From positions 1-64,000 of the forward strand of contig JABABM010000003.1 of NCBI GenBank assembly GCA_014238205.1: DNA of 64,000 bases, in the 5' to 3' direction. The notes under the pieces were generated by a model. That model ran no database searches. It saw nothing but the letters and a program-made list of their open reading frames with translations, and had not been told where the DNA came from. The translations under genes and the position numbers were made by a program. Below are positions 7,481-46,347 of the stretch, piece by piece; the first letter of the stretch is position 1; each line of letters opens with the position of its first letter. This stretch comes from Phycisphaerales bacterium (GTDB lineage: Bacteria > Planctomycetota > Phycisphaerae > Phycisphaerales > SM1A02).

Positions 7481-10400
7481 ACCAGGTACACGAACCTTCA
7501 TGATTCCGTTCATCGTGGTCCAGTGTCCCGGGTACGTGCACACGTAGACATAGTCACCCGGCTCCTCCGGGGCGGTGAATACGAGCTCGGCTGATGAGTG
7601 CGGATCGACGATGGGGATCCAGTGCAGGATCTCCCTCATCTTCGGAACATAATGGCGTGCCTTGGCATTCGTCGTCGTACCAAGCAGGGTAGCCTTGCGT
7701 CCAATCGCCTTCAGGCTCCCCGGGGAGCCGATCACCAGGTTGTGGGGCTTGTCATCCGGATTCGTCAGCACGAGCCGCACCGGGGATCCAGCCTCGACGG
7801 TGAACTCCTTGATGTTGTAATCCATTCGATACGGCGCAGCGGCGATTTCAATCGTCGGCACCCGCAATGCAGCAAGTCGCTGACCAAGATTGGGTTCTCG
7901 ATCGCCCATCGCCATTGCCGCCATCAACACGGGATCATCCTGCGACTGCATTGGAATCGGTTCCACAAGTTCATACACCGAATCTCCAAGTGACTCGGAC
8001 CATGGAATGGCGCCGCCATCACCCAACGTCTGCAGTGCCGCAACACGTATTCTTCCCGATGGATCGTCATTCAATACATGACGTACTGATTTCTTCGATG
8101 CCGGCTGATCCACCTGTTGCCATACGGACTTGCGATCACCATCAAGGATCGTCAGCGTGTATCCATCAATGCGATTCCAGTAGGGCTCGTCCTGGCGATT
8201 GTGAATCACGATTTCATCAATGGATTGCATGGAACCGAGATCAATCTCCCACCATGGATCCCGACGGCCTTCCGACGTGTGTGATTGTGAGCCGCTTGCA
8301 AAGGAGGGACTCGCGTCACCATCGATGGCACGCCCGGGTACACCGCCCCATGCTTCGGAAGACTGGGTGGCCTTCGCCTGGAGTGCAATATTTCGGCCAC
8401 CTGAGAGCACTTCGACCTCGGCCAGTGTCAAAGGCTCAATGCCGGGCAGATCAATGCGCACGTGGCGACCGTTGTACGTTTCCTCTGCTTCGACATTGGA
8501 TGTGCGCCAAGCAAGCGGATCGATGACATATTCGGCTGCACGGATATTGGCGGAGTCACGCAGTTCGCCTTCTGGAAGCAATCGCACTGCTTCAAGCCAC
8601 CTTTGAACCATCTGTTCCGAGACACGCTCCCCTCCCAATGGAGCCAGCGAATCGCCGTTGGCGAGCATGTCCGCCGACATCAATGCGCGTCGAGTTGGTT
8701 CGAGTCGAGCATCCTCCATCGACGAGTCGAACTTCATGTTGATCGACTGCAGCTCAGATCTATCCATGGTCGCCAAGAGCAGGCCAGGCTCACTGGATTC
8801 ACCTGCCGCGCGAGCATCATCTCGGTTCAACTCAAGGAGCCAGGCCTCAGCCGGCGATACGCCCTGTTCTCTCGCCACTGCTTCCAACGCTTCGCGACGA
8901 CGAAGCATGGGAGCATCTGCACGCTGGACCAGGGTCCGTTCAACCGCTGGAAGTGGCTGCATCTCGATGAGTTCATCGGTTGATACACCTGTCAGCAGAT
9001 CATCGATGGCCGATGGATTCGCCTCGGCGTAGGACCACCCCTCCTGCATCGCCACCGTCCAATGCGGTGCCAACTCGACCATCGTCTGTTCGAGTACGTG
9101 ATCCAGGGTTCGATCTCCCGGGTGCCGTGCAGCCTCAAGGGCGATCTCGGCGCCTTCCAGGTTGTCCAGCCATGATGCGGCAACCACCGCTTCCAGGCGG
9201 ACACGTGGGGCCGGGTCGTTCGCTGCGGCACGAAGCAGGTCGGTCGCAGTCGGGACTCGATCCGCCCATGCCGAGAGTACGCGTACCCCAGCGGCCCTGG
9301 CGCGGGCATCCGGGCTTGCCAGTACTCGCCCAAGGTGCCCGGGATTCACGACGTCGTGATTCTGAAGCACCCAGAGTGCTTCAAGTTGGTCATGCTCACT
9401 GGCATTGGAACGACTCGACCATTCAGCGGCAGCTGAAACAACTTCACTCGTGGGCTTCCTGCGGAGGGCGAGGCGAGCTCGATCCCGCGTTCGCCGTTCA
9501 GGATGTTCCAGCACGGAGAACAGCTCCGGCACAGTCATTTCGGACACGTCAATGACTTCCGTCAACGGGGTATCACTGCGCACCATGCGCCAGACTCGTC
9601 CATGCGCATGGTCGCGATTCGGATCACGGAGCGAGTGCTGCATGTGCCCGATGAGCGGGTTGTACCAATCGACGAACCAGAGTGCCCCGTCTGGGCCGAC
9701 CTGGATGTCGCACGGCCTGAACAGCGGATCATCGGAAACAAGCAGATCCTGCTCGAAGCTGCCCTTGATGCCTGAACCGGCATCGGACAGTCCATGTTGC
9801 CGGATCCCTCTCAACGTGATGACATTTGTAAGCAGGTAATCCCCCTGCAGATCCTCACCCAGGTGTTCGCTGGAAACAACTTCGCATCCCCCCGTCGGGC
9901 GGATGCTCTTGTCTTCGAATGACGGCACTCCACGGTGCTTGCGCTCGTAACTCATCTTCGAAGCGATGTTGGCGCCGAGATAGTTCGCACCACCAGAGGC
10001 ATCGGCAACGTAATCCTGCCCCCAGTCGTCGAATACATGGCCCCATGGATTCGCGAACCCGTACGAAACATGAACCCTGACTTTCCCTGTTCTCGGCTCG
10101 TAGCGGAAGACCGCGCCGTTCTTCACCCGCACTGGTCCGTGGGGGGTTTCAACCTGTGAATGGTGAAACGTTCCCTCCTGGAAATACAGCCCCCCGCCAG
10201 GGCCCCACTCGAAGGCGCTCAACGCATGGTGGCTGTCCTCGGTGCCGAATCCGTGCAACACGACTTCGCTCGTATCCGCCTTCCCGTCCCCATCGGTGTC
10301 CTGGAGAAACAGCAGGTTCGGTTGCGCAGCAACGTAGACTCCACCGTCTCCCAGCTCGAAGCCGGTCGGCACATGCAACCCTTCGGCAAAGACGTCGCAG

Positions 10401-41421: not shown

Positions 41422-43017
41422 TCAGGCGGGAGCGTGGCTCGATTCGCCAAGAATTCGTCGAGTCTGGTGGACGTCTATGAAGGGGAGAATGGCCACGATC
41501 GCCAGTTGAAAGAGGCCGAACACGATCATGATGTTCACGATCCCGTACTCCTCGACCGGCCCTGAAATCCACTGCCCGGTCGTAGTCGACAGGTTGAGAA
41601 TGGCCATGTAGGCCGTGAACTGCGTACCTGCGACTATTGGCCACGAAACGGTCATGTACATCGAGAAGAGCCCGACGCTGGCCAGGGAAACGAGGAAGCC
41701 CTCGGCAAGGATGAAGGCTGTCATGGCGCCGTCCGATGTCCAGGAGAACCACTCCAAGCCAAGCAGATCCGGATCCATCGCCGCAAAGGCGAGGTAGGTG
41801 AGTCCAAGGCAGATCGTTCCGAATGCGATGATCCGCTTTGCACCGAATGCGTCGGCCAGGAATCCGCCTCCCATGGCACCTGCCAGGCCGAGGAAGACGC
41901 CATACCCCCCGGATATATCCGTGTAGTCGGTTCGTGACCAACCCAGGTCCTGCTGGTAGAAGACCTGGAGAATCGGGCCAAGTGCACCATTGGCAATGAA
42001 CATCCCCAAACCGATGAAGCCTGCAAGGATCGATGATCGAAGTGAAAATGCCTTGCCAAGGCGTTTGAAGAGAACCTTGATGGATCTGGAAACCGCGGCT
42101 GCAGTTTCTTTCTGCACTTCACCCCGTGTCCAGGGCAGCAGTTTCTCTCCAGAACGTTCACGCAGGAACAATGGTATGCAGAGTATTACGGCGAGTATCA
42201 GCGTCTGCCATGCGAATACGCCTCCAAGTCCACTCGACGTCAATACTCTGCTCAGTACAGCTCCCCCGATGAACGTGCCTATGAATTTGGATCCATACAT
42301 GAGACCGCTGACTCGACCACGCTCCTCTTCCCGAAGCAGATCGACCGCAAGCGCATCAACCGATACATCCTGGAGCGAGTTGAAGATGTTGTGAGTGAAT
42401 ACCATCCAGCCGATCAGTACGAGCGATTCGGTGATCGACGGTACGAACGCCATGATGGCGATCGTCACGATCATTCCAGCCTGCGCAAGAAGAATCCATG
42501 GACGACGTCGCCCCATTGCCGGGATGCCGTATCGATCGATCATCGGCCCCCAGACCCATTTGAATGTCCAGGGAAGCGTGCCCATTGCAAGAAGGCCGCC
42601 GATCTGAGCCGTAGTGGCATTGGATTCCACGAGGTAGGCAGCGAGGGTGACTGTCACGAATCCATAGGGAATCCCCTGGGCGACATACAGGATGCAAAGC
42701 GTCAGAAGCCTCAGCAATGGACGATCCGACAGGTTCAACTGTGCGCGGGGCGATGCTGGAGAGGGTCGATGGCTGGTGGAGGATCTGAGTCGCACCAGGA
42801 GGACGATCACACCGCCAACGATCGCCAGGATGAGGATCCAGGAAAGCAGGTTCAGCGTGTCGGTGAAATTAGTCAGCGCTTCCAGGCCGGCGTCTGGAAG
42901 CGTCTGTCCTGTCGAAGTGCGAGGCGAAGAAATGCAACTTGCCAGGATACCTGCGACAAAGACCACCACCGTGCCAATCAGAAGCACCCTGGCTATTGGT
43001 CGGTCAGGAAGGGGCAT
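41422..43017 (-). CDS. MFS transporter (AmpG-like) with lipobox N-terminal module
   Basis: A 531-residue protein. From about residue 95 it is a 12-helix major facilitator, closest in pattern to the AmpG/acetyl-CoA transporter-like group: LCILYVAQGIPYGFVTVTLAAYL, TLPWTFKWVWGPMIDRYGIPAMGRRRPW, NSLQDVSVDALAVDLL. AmpG-type carriers take up anhydromuropeptides, so a cell-wall recycling role is possible but not proven. In front is an extra module with lipobox ILASC (Cys28), D-A-G-x-E at 42-46 and a membrane helix (about 60-77), aligning without gaps to the start of the DUF4212 protein at 14080. This would add a thirteenth membrane segment. Confidence 0.83.
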   Translation of the reverse strand: MPLPDRPIARVLLIGTVVVFVAGILASCISSPRTSTGQTLPDAGLEALTNFTDTLNLLSWILILAIVGGVIVLLVRLRSSTSHRPSPASPRAQLNLSDRPLLRLLTLCILYVAQGIPYGFVTVTLAAYLVESNATTAQIGGLLAMGTLPWTFKWVWGPMIDRYGIPAMGRRRPWILLAQAGMIVTIAIMAFVPSITESLVLIGWMVFTHNIFNSLQDVSVDALAVDLLREEERGRVSGLMYGSKFIGTFIGGAVLSRVLTSSGLGGVFAWQTLILAVILCIPLFLRERSGEKLLPWTRGEVQKETAAAVSRSIKVLFKRLGKAFSLRSSILAGFIGLGMFIANGALGPILQVFYQQDLGWSRTDYTDISGGYGVFLGLAGAMGGGFLADAFGAKRIIAFGTICLGLTYLAFAAMDPDLLGLEWFSWTSDGAMTAFILAEGFLVSLASVGLFSMYMTVSWPIVAGTQFTAYMAILNLSTTTGQWISGPVEEYGIVNIMIVFGLFQLAIVAILPFIDVHQTRRILGESSHAPA

Positions 43018-43074: not shown

Positions 43075-43413
43075 TCAGGTTGATCCGTATCCTTCTTCCT
43101 TCAACTGCTCGATCGCCATGCGCTCGCATTCCTCCAACTTTCCCATGATCATCGCATCATCGAAGTCGACGCCACTGGCTCCAAGGTCGGTTCTGATCTT
43201 CGCAAGAACATCCTCTACCCCCGGTTCCTTGATGTCCTCCTTGACGACATCCATGGCGTAGGCATCAACTGCATCACCCTCCAGGCCCATGCAGCCGGCT
43301 GCCCATCGTCCAAGCAACTTGTTCCGGCGGGCTTCGATCCGGAACTGCACTTCTGAAGCGTGCTTCAGTTTCGCGTCCTGCCCCTCTTCCATCTTCTCGA
43401 ATCCACTGGACAT
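43075..43413 (-). CDS. DUF1476 protein, F1-ATPase zeta subunit-like
   Basis: A 112-residue all-helical protein. Residues about 26-80 match the zeta-subunit family described as an F1-ATPase inhibitor in alphaproteobacteria: F-R-I-E-A-R-R-N-K-L-L-G-x-W-A-A-G, then G-x-x-G-D-x-x-x-A-Y-A, VV-x-x-D-I-x-EPG-x-EDV, and an acidic amphipathic C-terminus. In those bacteria it blocks ATP hydrolysis by inserting an N-terminal segment into F1. That inhibitory N-terminus varies among relatives, so the ability to inhibit is not certain here. Located between the MFS carrier and a PH-like membrane protein in a leftward run; no ATP synthase genes are nearby. Confidence 0.85.
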   Translation of the reverse strand: MSSGFEKMEEGQDAKLKHASEVQFRIEARRNKLLGRWAAGCMGLEGDAVDAYAMDVVKEDIKEPGVEDVLAKIRTDLGASGVDFDDAMIMGKLEECERMAIEQLKEEGYGST

Positions 43414-43446
43414 GCTCGTAGTCCTCCATGTAATGAACTTGGGGCA

Positions 43447-43944
43447 TCATACATCGGTGGGTGAAGTTGATTCGTTCCCGATAGCCGCGGTAATGGCCTC
43501 ATTCAACGCCTCCGGTTCGTCGGTCCCGATCCGGAAGTGATGCCCGTCTTCATAGGTCAACTGGACTGCATCCATCCCCGAGACATTCCACATCCAGCCA
43601 TCGAAGATATATCGGATCCCAAATCCGTACCACAGCCGATTACGAACAGGCCTGCATGAAACGACTCGGGAGAGTGGAATGCGCTTTCGCAGGAGGCCCA
43701 GGCCGAATGACATCCGGATGTGCTCCGCATCGATTGTCACCGTAAGTGAATGGAAGAGAAGAAACACAAGAGATACCACGGCGACAACGATGTAGAGCAC
43801 CCAGGTGGACAGCGCTGCAAACAGGAGAAGCCACACTGCGACAATGAGCCAGATCACGCGAAGAACGGTTCCAGGCTGGGTATGGTGATAGCGATGTGCG
43901 CCCAGGTCTCCCTCATCCTGGATCTCATGAAACTCCTGCATCAC
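43447..43944 (-). CDS. Two-helix membrane protein with PH-like domain
   Basis: A 165-residue protein with two adjacent hydrophobic helices (about 27-65) followed by a short beta-rich C-terminal half: LTVTIDAEHIRMSFGLGLLRKRIPLSRVVSCRPVR and D-A-V-Q-L-T-Y-E-D-G-H-H-F-R-I-G-T-D-E-P. This resembles bacterial PH (YdbT-like) membrane proteins; function unknown. The start overlaps the stop of the isoaspartyl peptidase gene by four bases, indicating translational coupling. Confidence 0.65.
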   Translation of the reverse strand: MMQEFHEIQDEGDLGAHRYHHTQPGTVLRVIWLIVAVWLLLFAALSTWVLYIVVAVVSLVFLLFHSLTVTIDAEHIRMSFGLGLLRKRIPLSRVVSCRPVRNRLWYGFGIRYIFDGWMWNVSGMDAVQLTYEDGHHFRIGTDEPEALNEAITAAIGNESTSPTDV

Positions 43945-44855
43945 TCTTCTCCATGGATCAACGTCTCGAACAACCCGGTCGAGTCTGCACGCCCTCGATA
44001 CATGCCACGCGAGGAGAACAGGGCCACGGGAACTCCTTCGCGGTCAATGGCGATGATGCCCCCGGCTGCATCCGGCATCATGCGAAGTACGCGCTCAACG
44101 GCGGCCCTTGCCCCAAGTCCTCCGGATCCAGCAAGCAGGGCGACCTTGTGTGCAGCCACATGTCGAACGAAGTCTTCTCCCCTGCCTGTACACGACACGG
44201 CGCACCCTTCGTCGGCATAGGTTCCACACCCGACAAGGGGAGAGTCGCCGATTCGACCCGCCATCTTGCCCGTCATTCCGCCTGTCGAGGTTGCCGAGGC
44301 GAGTCGACCTTCGACATCTCGAACAACAGCGCCGACAGTCGAACCCTCCTGCTCCAGTGTCGCTGGTTCCGCCTTGTAGCGCTCCAGCTCGGCAAGACGG
44401 CGGTCGGTGTCAAACCAGGAAGGATCGACGCGTTCCATGCCGATTGACTGTGCGTATTCCTCTGCACCGGACCCGGCAAGCATGACATGACCGGTGTGGT
44501 CCATGATGCACCGCGCCAACCTGATCGGGTTTCGCACGGTCCGAAGGCCGGCAGCTGCGCCGCAATCGAGCGACGACCCATCCATGATCGCCGCCTCAAG
44601 TTCGTGCTCGCCGTCGATGTTGAATACGGATCCCCTGCCTGCATTGAACAGTGGCTCATCCTCGAGCCCCGTCACCAGCTGCTCGGCAACATCGACTGCA
44701 GCCGTACCTGCTGAGAGCAGTTGCACACCAAGGTCGAGGATCCCCTTCAAGGCGGCCATGCATTCATCTCGGCGGCCTGGAGGCATCTCGACCGGTATCG
44801 ACCCGGCTCCGCCGTGAATGGCCACTCCCCAGTCTCTGGTGATTCCTGCAGACAT
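43941..44855 (-). CDS. Isoaspartyl peptidase / L-asparaginase (Ntn-hydrolase)
   Basis: A 304-residue precursor of the plant-type asparaginase family. WGVAIHGGAGSIP near the start, N-A-G-R-G-S-V-F, EAAIMDG, and the autocleavage site EGSTVGAVV whose Thr becomes the N-terminal nucleophile; STGGMTGKMAGRIGDSPLVGCGTYA is the classic substrate-binding loop. It cleaves iso-aspartyl dipeptides and asparagine. Start 44855 is where homology begins; earlier in-frame codons add an unconserved stretch over the divergent promoter. It lies divergently from the HlyD-like gene. Confidence 0.92.
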   Translation of the reverse strand: MSAGITRDWGVAIHGGAGSIPVEMPPGRRDECMAALKGILDLGVQLLSAGTAAVDVAEQLVTGLEDEPLFNAGRGSVFNIDGEHELEAAIMDGSSLDCGAAAGLRTVRNPIRLARCIMDHTGHVMLAGSGAEEYAQSIGMERVDPSWFDTDRRLAELERYKAEPATLEQEGSTVGAVVRDVEGRLASATSTGGMTGKMAGRIGDSPLVGCGTYADEGCAVSCTGRGEDFVRHVAAHKVALLAGSGGLGARAAVERVLRMMPDAAGGIIAIDREGVPVALFSSRGMYRGRADSTGLFETLIHGEE

Positions 44856-44943
44856 GAGGCGTGACGATACCAGAAGGACCTGCCCCGTTATCCACTGCTG
44901 GAGTATGGTGTTCATTCCTGACATGCCTCGAAGGAGCACGCCC

Positions 44944-46347
44944 ATGAAATATCCCTGCATCATCGCCCTCGCCTTCTCTCCACTGCTGCTCTTGGCAGCG
45001 GCTGAAGAGCCTGAACAAGCACCCCGCTACTCAGAGCATGTCGTCAAGCTTGGAAACCTCGACGTCGAGTGGGAGGGCGACCTTCGCCTTGAACCCATCA
45101 ACACCCATTCGATCGACGTCGATACCGATCAATGGAACCAACAGGCAGAAGTGCTGGACGTGGTTGTTCGCGACGGGATTGTTCGTCGAGGCGATGTACT
45201 GCTTCGACTTGATACGACGAGGATCGACGAAGCCATTGCCGAAGCGCAGACAGCACTTGACGAACTGAAAACCAGGACGGACATTTCCGAGAAGACTCGT
45301 GCAATCGAAGCGGAATCCATGGCAACAACGCTTGAGCAGAATGTCAAGTCGGAAGAACGGGCCAGACGGGATCTCAAGCTGTTTGAACAGTATCGCTCGA
45401 AGATCCAGAAGGAACGGCAGGCGATGGGCTACGAGCGAAGCCGGAATTACGTGGATGACCAGACACAGGAACTCGACCAGCTTGAGACGATGTATGGCGA
45501 CACGACTCTGGATGATCGCACGAAGGACATCGTCCTGGAGCGTGCTCGTCGTGGACTGGACCTGGCTGAAAGAGGATTCGAACACACGAAGGTCGAGAAC
45601 ACCCTCTTCGATGCGTACACGTTTCCGGACCGGGAACGGGATGTGAAGGACAGCGCTCGATGGAAACTCCAGAGCCTCGGCCACCTGAAGATCCGAAATC
45701 AACTCACAAGGATGCGGTGGGAACTGGATATCGCGCGGGAATCAAGGGACCTGGAGGACAAGCAGGAACGACTTGATGAGTTGAAGGATGATCGAGAACG
45801 ATTCACCATCAAGGCTCCGATCGATGGAATCCTGACGCGTATCGGCGCAGAGGCAGGCGATGAGATCGGAATGCATCAGCAACTGGCCCAGATCCACGAC
45901 CCCTCAACAGCCCAGCTCGAAGGAACCATCGAGGCCTCCGATCTCCTGGTCCTCGACCAGGGCATGCGGGTCTCGATCGAGGCGGGCGCCTTCCCCGGAC
46001 TGTCATTGCCTGGAACCATCCGCTCAATCGGACTCGTGGGAAGTCCCTCGGGGGCGGGAACATCCTTCCCCATCGAAATCACGCTCTCGAAGCATGACGC
46101 CCGACTGCGGCTGGGCCTTGCCTGCACTGCAATCGCGAAGAAGACACTCAAGCGGGTGCTCCGTGTCCCTGTTGCCGCCGTCGGTGTCGAGGATGGAGAT
46201 CGGCATTTCGTTCGGGTCAAGCGTGGGGAAAATGTCATTGAACAGGATGTTGTCACCGGACAGCGAAATGATGAGTTCATCGAGATCGTCTCGGGGCTGA
46301 AGTCCGGCGATCGCATCCAGATTCCCATGGATGAGGACGGCAACTGA
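44944..46347 (+). CDS. HlyD-like periplasmic adaptor protein
   Basis: The 467-residue product has a signal peptide (about 1-20, LLLLAAAEE), a lipoyl-like half (VVVRDGIVRRGDVLLRLDT), a long coiled-coil hairpin (about 90-290, rich in Glu, Arg, Lys and Leu), the second lipoyl half (FTIKAPIDGILTRI-GAEAGDEI) and beta-barrel regions. It is a membrane-fusion adaptor of the type used by ABC or RND exporters, yet no exporter gene is adjacent. AAGGAG is seven bases before the start. The next gene begins five bases after the stop, encoding a cyclase-fold lipoprotein. Confidence 0.83.
   Translation: MKYPCIIALAFSPLLLLAAAEEPEQAPRYSEHVVKLGNLDVEWEGDLRLEPINTHSIDVDTDQWNQQAEVLDVVVRDGIVRRGDVLLRLDTTRIDEAIAEAQTALDELKTRTDISEKTRAIEAESMATTLEQNVKSEERARRDLKLFEQYRSKIQKERQAMGYERSRNYVDDQTQELDQLETMYGDTTLDDRTKDIVLERARRGLDLAERGFEHTKVENTLFDAYTFPDRERDVKDSARWKLQSLGHLKIRNQLTRMRWELDIARESRDLEDKQERLDELKDDRERFTIKAPIDGILTRIGAEAGDEIGMHQQLAQIHDPSTAQLEGTIEASDLLVLDQGMRVSIEAGAFPGLSLPGTIRSIGLVGSPSGAGTSFPIEITLSKHDARLRLGLACTAIAKKTLKRVLRVPVAAVGVEDGDRHFVRVKRGENVIEQDVVTGQRNDEFIEIVSGLKSGDRIQIPMDEDGN

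Follow-up and report, generated by a model that had tools for sequence, protein, structure and literature searches.

In P. denitrificans, the inhibitory domain of the F1FO-ATPase zeta subunit lies within its first 14 residues, which turn helical and insert where alpha, beta, and gamma meet (PMC10469736). The size of the zeta effect is disputed in this bacterium: deletion of zeta raises ATP hydrolysis less than twofold (PMC5795051), and epsilon and Mg-ADP also contribute to limiting hydrolysis (PMC8039183). For alphaproteobacteria, zeta has been proposed to take over from epsilon (PMC9317440). The family is described as essentially exclusive to the alphaproteobacteria, with matches elsewhere regarded as truncated pseudogenes (PMC9317440), a second report likewise terms it essentially exclusive to them (PMC10469736), and this exclusivity has been used in arguments on the origin of mitochondria and IF1 (PMC9317440, PMC10469736). 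The analysis reported here shows that the exclusivity claim is wrong, with intact and selected copies present across a planctomycete order; prior mention, for example in subscription journals, is possible.

The gene lies in a 64,000-nucleotide stretch of a Phycisphaerales genome (the window), as a 112-codon open reading frame running from an ATG start at 43413 to 43075 on the minus strand. The genome (2.44 Mb, 95% complete) carries one zeta copy, on a contig of 129.9 kb. The features of the locus are as follows.

43075 to 43413, minus strand, zeta gene (ATPaseInh_sub_z, PF07345), 112 amino acids; Pfam E 3.4e-30, zeta relatives in the PDB, AlphaFold2 mean pLDDT 89.7
43423 to 43427, minus strand, putative ribosome-binding site GGAGG, 9 nt 5' of the ATG, proposed from sequence and spacing
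43351 to 43413, minus strand, codons 1 to 21, equivalent of the inhibitory N-terminus of P. denitrificans zeta by alignment and residue column table
43390 to 43392, minus strand, codon 8, Met replacing a near-invariant Arg (column table)
43309 to 43332, minus strand, core motif ARRNKLLG, residues 28 to 35 (column table)
41422 to 43017, minus strand, downstream neighbour, MFS transporter (AmpG-like), adjoining zeta in a congener and in genus g273 too
43447 to 43944, minus strand, upstream neighbour, hypothetical protein, with a syntenic counterpart in the congener G737
43941 to 44963, minus strand, upstream neighbour, Asparaginase_2 family protein; synteny holds in G737, and in G592 the gene lies ~4 kb upstream of zeta

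The window protein is firmly a member of PF07345 (ATPase inhibitor subunit zeta, formerly DUF1476) by sequence and by fold. The Pfam match scores 104.9 bits, the curated cut-off being 25 bits, and is full length, spanning profile positions 3 to 102 of 102; none of the NCBIfam models matched. Significant phmmer matches in the PDB are zeta subunits only: those of P. denitrificans (2ll0/2mdz/5dn6, E 3.7e-20) and S. meliloti (7vkv, E 1.1e-15), and 2kzc (E 2.6e-14). AlphaFold2, given the protein and 31 homologues, predicts helices at residues 3-41, 47-62, 67-79, and 86-106, and Foldseek with this model returned the zeta structures 2kzc, 7vkv, and 2ll0 as the best three, with no other near significance. 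The predicted structure has the zeta fold, a bundle of helices of which the N-terminal one is extendable. The initial annotation, made from the letters alone, had proposed a zeta homologue in a planctomycete from the motifs EARRNKLLG-x-WAAG, AYA, and EPG-x-EDV; all of these are found in the 112-residue product, and the Pfam match, the PDB relatives, and the synteny described below bear the identification out.

The zeta gene is part of a same-strand run coding for Asparaginase_2, a hypothetical protein, zeta, the AmpG-like MFS transporter, an AsmA-like protein, and a 933-residue protein. This neighbourhood is common to the congener G737 and the sister genus g273 (G592), and 79 alphaproteobacterial zeta loci have none of the window gene's neighbours next to zeta. 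Linkage of zeta to the asparaginase is limited to the congener and G592; a linkage extending across families was considered and dropped, the corresponding neighbour in family f4 being a YfiO-like lipoprotein by Pfam. The zeta-positive genomes also include a named one, Phycisphaerales bacterium ALOHA_ZT_32 (G493, L058), which places its family, f1, within the Phycisphaerales; together with the same-family synteny, it confirms the planctomycete gene context that had been claimed for the window. The majority of the genomes are metagenome assemblies and some zeta copies are on short contigs, as would be expected had alphaproteobacterial contigs been mis-binned into planctomycete genomes. We reject such contamination as exceedingly improbable, as zeta is present in a single-contig 4.6-Mb genome (G422) and in the near-closed, six-contig G407, is syntenic with planctomycete neighbours, and occurs as one copy in each of 64 genomes, and the window copy is itself closest to other planctomycete copies.

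These are functional genes, not truncated pseudogenes. The first 31 planctomycete loci are all full length (100 to 113 residues), most with a recognisable ribosome-binding site, and the copies fetched later fall in the same length range. Values of dN/dS are ~0.04 to 0.31 over 15 close within-group pairs, and 0.096 for the window gene against its congener, reflecting purifying selection. We consider it likely that the gene is a selected planctomycete orthologue of the alphaproteobacterial zeta, acquired long ago, passed on mainly vertically with losses, and acting as a pawl on the native F1. One or a few entries would have brought the family into the Phycisphaerae, most likely from alphaproteobacteria, with mainly vertical inheritance and repeated loss thereafter. 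The protein would be a bundle of four helices, the long one at its N-terminus reaching in between alpha, beta, and gamma of the organism's own planctomycete-type F1, where it would serve as a one-way pawl, blocking ATP hydrolysis and leaving synthesis free. Both F1 binding and inhibition by the planctomycete proteins are what we infer; as a group these proteins are likely inhibitors, and for the window protein this is uncertain.

Within the Phycisphaerales, zeta was found in 64 of 400 sampled genomes, belonging to 16 of 163 genera and three families and always as a single copy; f1, the family of the window genome, accounts for most of them, and f4 and f3 contribute some. The suggestion that the family might have a wider, overlooked distribution is thus borne out and much extended. 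The counts are 18 of 397 sampled genomes in the class and 4 of 392 in a sample drawn evenly across the phylum. Only one positive genome (G1108, L311) is in the class and outside the order, and its zeta is nearest the f3 and f4 copies. A distribution that is common and vertical in Planctomycetes had been named as evidence against transfer; such a pattern holds within part of one order, but not phylum-wide. Because presence is patchy, the function of zeta appears dispensable, and this counts against the reading that we prefer.

Two observations concern unusual copies. Genus g279 (L124, L125, and L126) codes for divergent zeta-like proteins scoring 36 to 39 bits, which keep the N-terminal 'GF-EKF-HEDA--F' pattern and have lost the ARRN and Trp core; we offer as one reading that these may be decaying or re-purposed zetas. 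Tandem zeta pairs are present at L046/L145 (Rhodospirillaceae BH24) and L187 (G996), one copy of the pair being more diverged.

Zeta was found in 75 of 299 sampled Pseudomonadota genomes. An alphaproteobacterial donor is favoured, as zeta is widespread there and scattered in planctomycetes, the direction of transfer being read from this distribution. The named plasmid matches listed from tblastn belong to alphaproteobacterial genera. Phage records gave no zeta match, and with none in these or in IMG/VR a phage or virus as the vehicle was rejected. The horizontal gain proposed in the initial annotation is therefore plausible from the distribution, but not as a recent transfer into the window genome: inheritance in the family looks largely vertical, and one old clade is possible. 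In the zeta tree the window copy clusters with those of its congener and of g273, a genus that is also sister to the window's by the beta subunit, and there is a modest correlation between zeta and beta distances (Mantel r 0.27, a value reached in 36 of 5,000 permutations). Inheritance in the order looks largely vertical at shallow depth, and zeta-negative relatives interspersed among the positives indicate losses. A zeta-negative congener (G741) was dropped as evidence of loss, its genome being only 70% complete.

The zeta trees have ~107 usable columns and no outgroup, and are correspondingly weak. In unconstrained trees the planctomycete copies fall in two or more places among the alphaproteobacterial ones, with 3 to 5 label changes; the largest tree (153 rows) has 5, of which at least 2 are forced by well-supported branches. 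Such splits, together with the presence of zeta on alphaproteobacterial plasmids, are what would be expected if, in place of one old entry, separate Phycisphaerales lineages had obtained zeta from various alphaproteobacteria in several independent transfers. The same 107 columns do not, however, reject a single planctomycete clade: with long branches removed, the constrained tree is 6.3 log units better (p-AU 0.61), and in another subsample it is 24.5 units worse (p-AU 0.12). The correlation of zeta with beta also speaks against several transfers, which we regard as a real possibility falling somewhat short of even. They concern history and are compatible with the functional part of our preferred explanation, and the data are compatible with one to a few entries.

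The inhibitory segment is retained in most planctomycete copies. In a residue column table that left out the divergent g279 copies, Arg8 is kept in 99% of alphaproteobacterial and 98% of planctomycete proteins, and the latter have Glu or Asp at position 13, Lys15 in 92%, and Phe24 in 100%; all planctomycete copies except those of g279 retain the N-terminal and core pattern. Among the tabulated planctomycete copies, only those of the window genome and its congener G737 lack Arg8, having Met at this position. The same genus has Val for Asp66 and Met or Ser for Arg90, with the majority of N-terminal positions kept. The first reading of the sequence had the N-terminus differing from known zetas and inhibition as uncertain; both points stand for the window's genus, where Arg8 is lost, but not for planctomycetes generally, in which the segment is kept and inhibition is less in doubt. 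Judged from the residues, the loss of Arg8 may weaken or alter inhibition in this genus, and the changes at Arg8 and Asp66 count against the preferred reading.

These replacements would also fit a zeta homologue that no longer inhibits, or inhibits differently, either across planctomycetes or in the window's genus at the least, with the conserved globular part serving another role. There is precedent, in that the S. meliloti zeta fails to inhibit its own F1 (PMC10469736) and another role has been suggested for the Zymomonas and the non-inhibitory Sinorhizobium proteins, and the g279 copies persist without the ARRN-W core. We consider this alternative unlikely, as the inhibitory segment is conserved in most planctomycete copies almost as well as in alphaproteobacteria. 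The very small rise in hydrolysis on deletion of the P. denitrificans gene (PMC5795051, PMC8039183) nonetheless counts against a brake.

The initial annotation had also proposed locating the ATP synthase. The window genome codes for one F1FO set, in which alpha, beta, gamma, delta, epsilon, and a were found, scattered and far from zeta: zeta is on contig C33, and the atp genes are on C6, C22, and C76. This distance, as in alphaproteobacteria, is listed against the preferred explanation. The beta subunit is of planctomycete type, being 79 to 90% identical to relatives outside the genus and 62% to that of a Roseibium genome, so that zeta was not brought in together with a synthase from alphaproteobacteria. 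As to the arrangement of the set (C6, L138; C22, L139 6551-7996 and L140 6998-7882; C76, L113 ~9244-9660), a, delta, and alpha are together with probable b and c between them, and beta, gamma, and epsilon each stand alone elsewhere, beta and gamma being 65 kb apart on one contig.

If zeta had replaced epsilon, loss of the epsilon C-terminal domain would be predicted in zeta-positive genomes. Among 68 genomes, which are not independent of one another, the domain is missing in 8 of 36 zeta-positives and 3 of 32 negatives, the expected direction without significance (Fisher p 0.20). Compensation by zeta for this loss was accordingly dropped; the result counts against the preferred explanation, and is one that lost inhibition would accommodate. 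Epsilons of 80 to 90 residues lacking the C-terminal helical domain are present in G606, G616, G620, and G542 (g281), G220 (g16), G440 and G452 (g24), and G407 (g311), as well as in the zeta-negative G242, G198, and G348. The window genome's epsilon has a C-terminal extension of ~50 residues with no Pfam match. Of the 29 epsilons tested, none has the ATP-binding motif I(L)DxxRA published for epsilon, two having K for R, and as it is absent in zeta-positive and zeta-negative genomes alike, it does not discriminate between them. We note that G220 also codes for a second, divergent beta (50% identical) with a second epsilon directly after it (L240, L269; G220:C23:51108-52747), and hence for a second F-type ATPase, possibly an N-ATPase.

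What is new here is the occurrence of a known family in a phylum where it was not expected, its broad distribution there, and a genus-specific change at a near-invariant Arg. With a chance that we would place close to even, a second phylum brakes its own F1 by zeta, which would be the sole dedicated inhibitor where the epsilon C-terminus is lost (g281, g311, g16, and part of g24), and the window's genus would be a natural Arg mutant with altered or relaxed inhibition. The planctomycetes offer independent F1/zeta pairs, with or without the epsilon C-terminal domain and with one natural Arg replacement, in which the disputed extent of zeta inhibition is testable outside P. denitrificans.

Among known systems, mitochondrial IF1 is not homologous to zeta, although an analogous inhibitory mode has been claimed (PMC10469736), and none of the sequence or structure searches with the window protein returned it. 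The S. meliloti zeta (7VKV) is homologous and shows by example that conservation does not entail inhibition; unlike the window protein, it retains the Arg. Compared with P. denitrificans zeta (2LL0, 2MDZ, 5DN6), the window protein has full-length homology, the same predicted fold, the N-terminal layout, and the ARRN-LLG-WAAG core, and its gene is likewise single copy and apart from the atp operons. It differs in having Met8 for Arg and Val66 for Asp, and in its setting, a host of another phylum with a planctomycete-type F1 and an epsilon extended by ~50 residues at its C-terminus.
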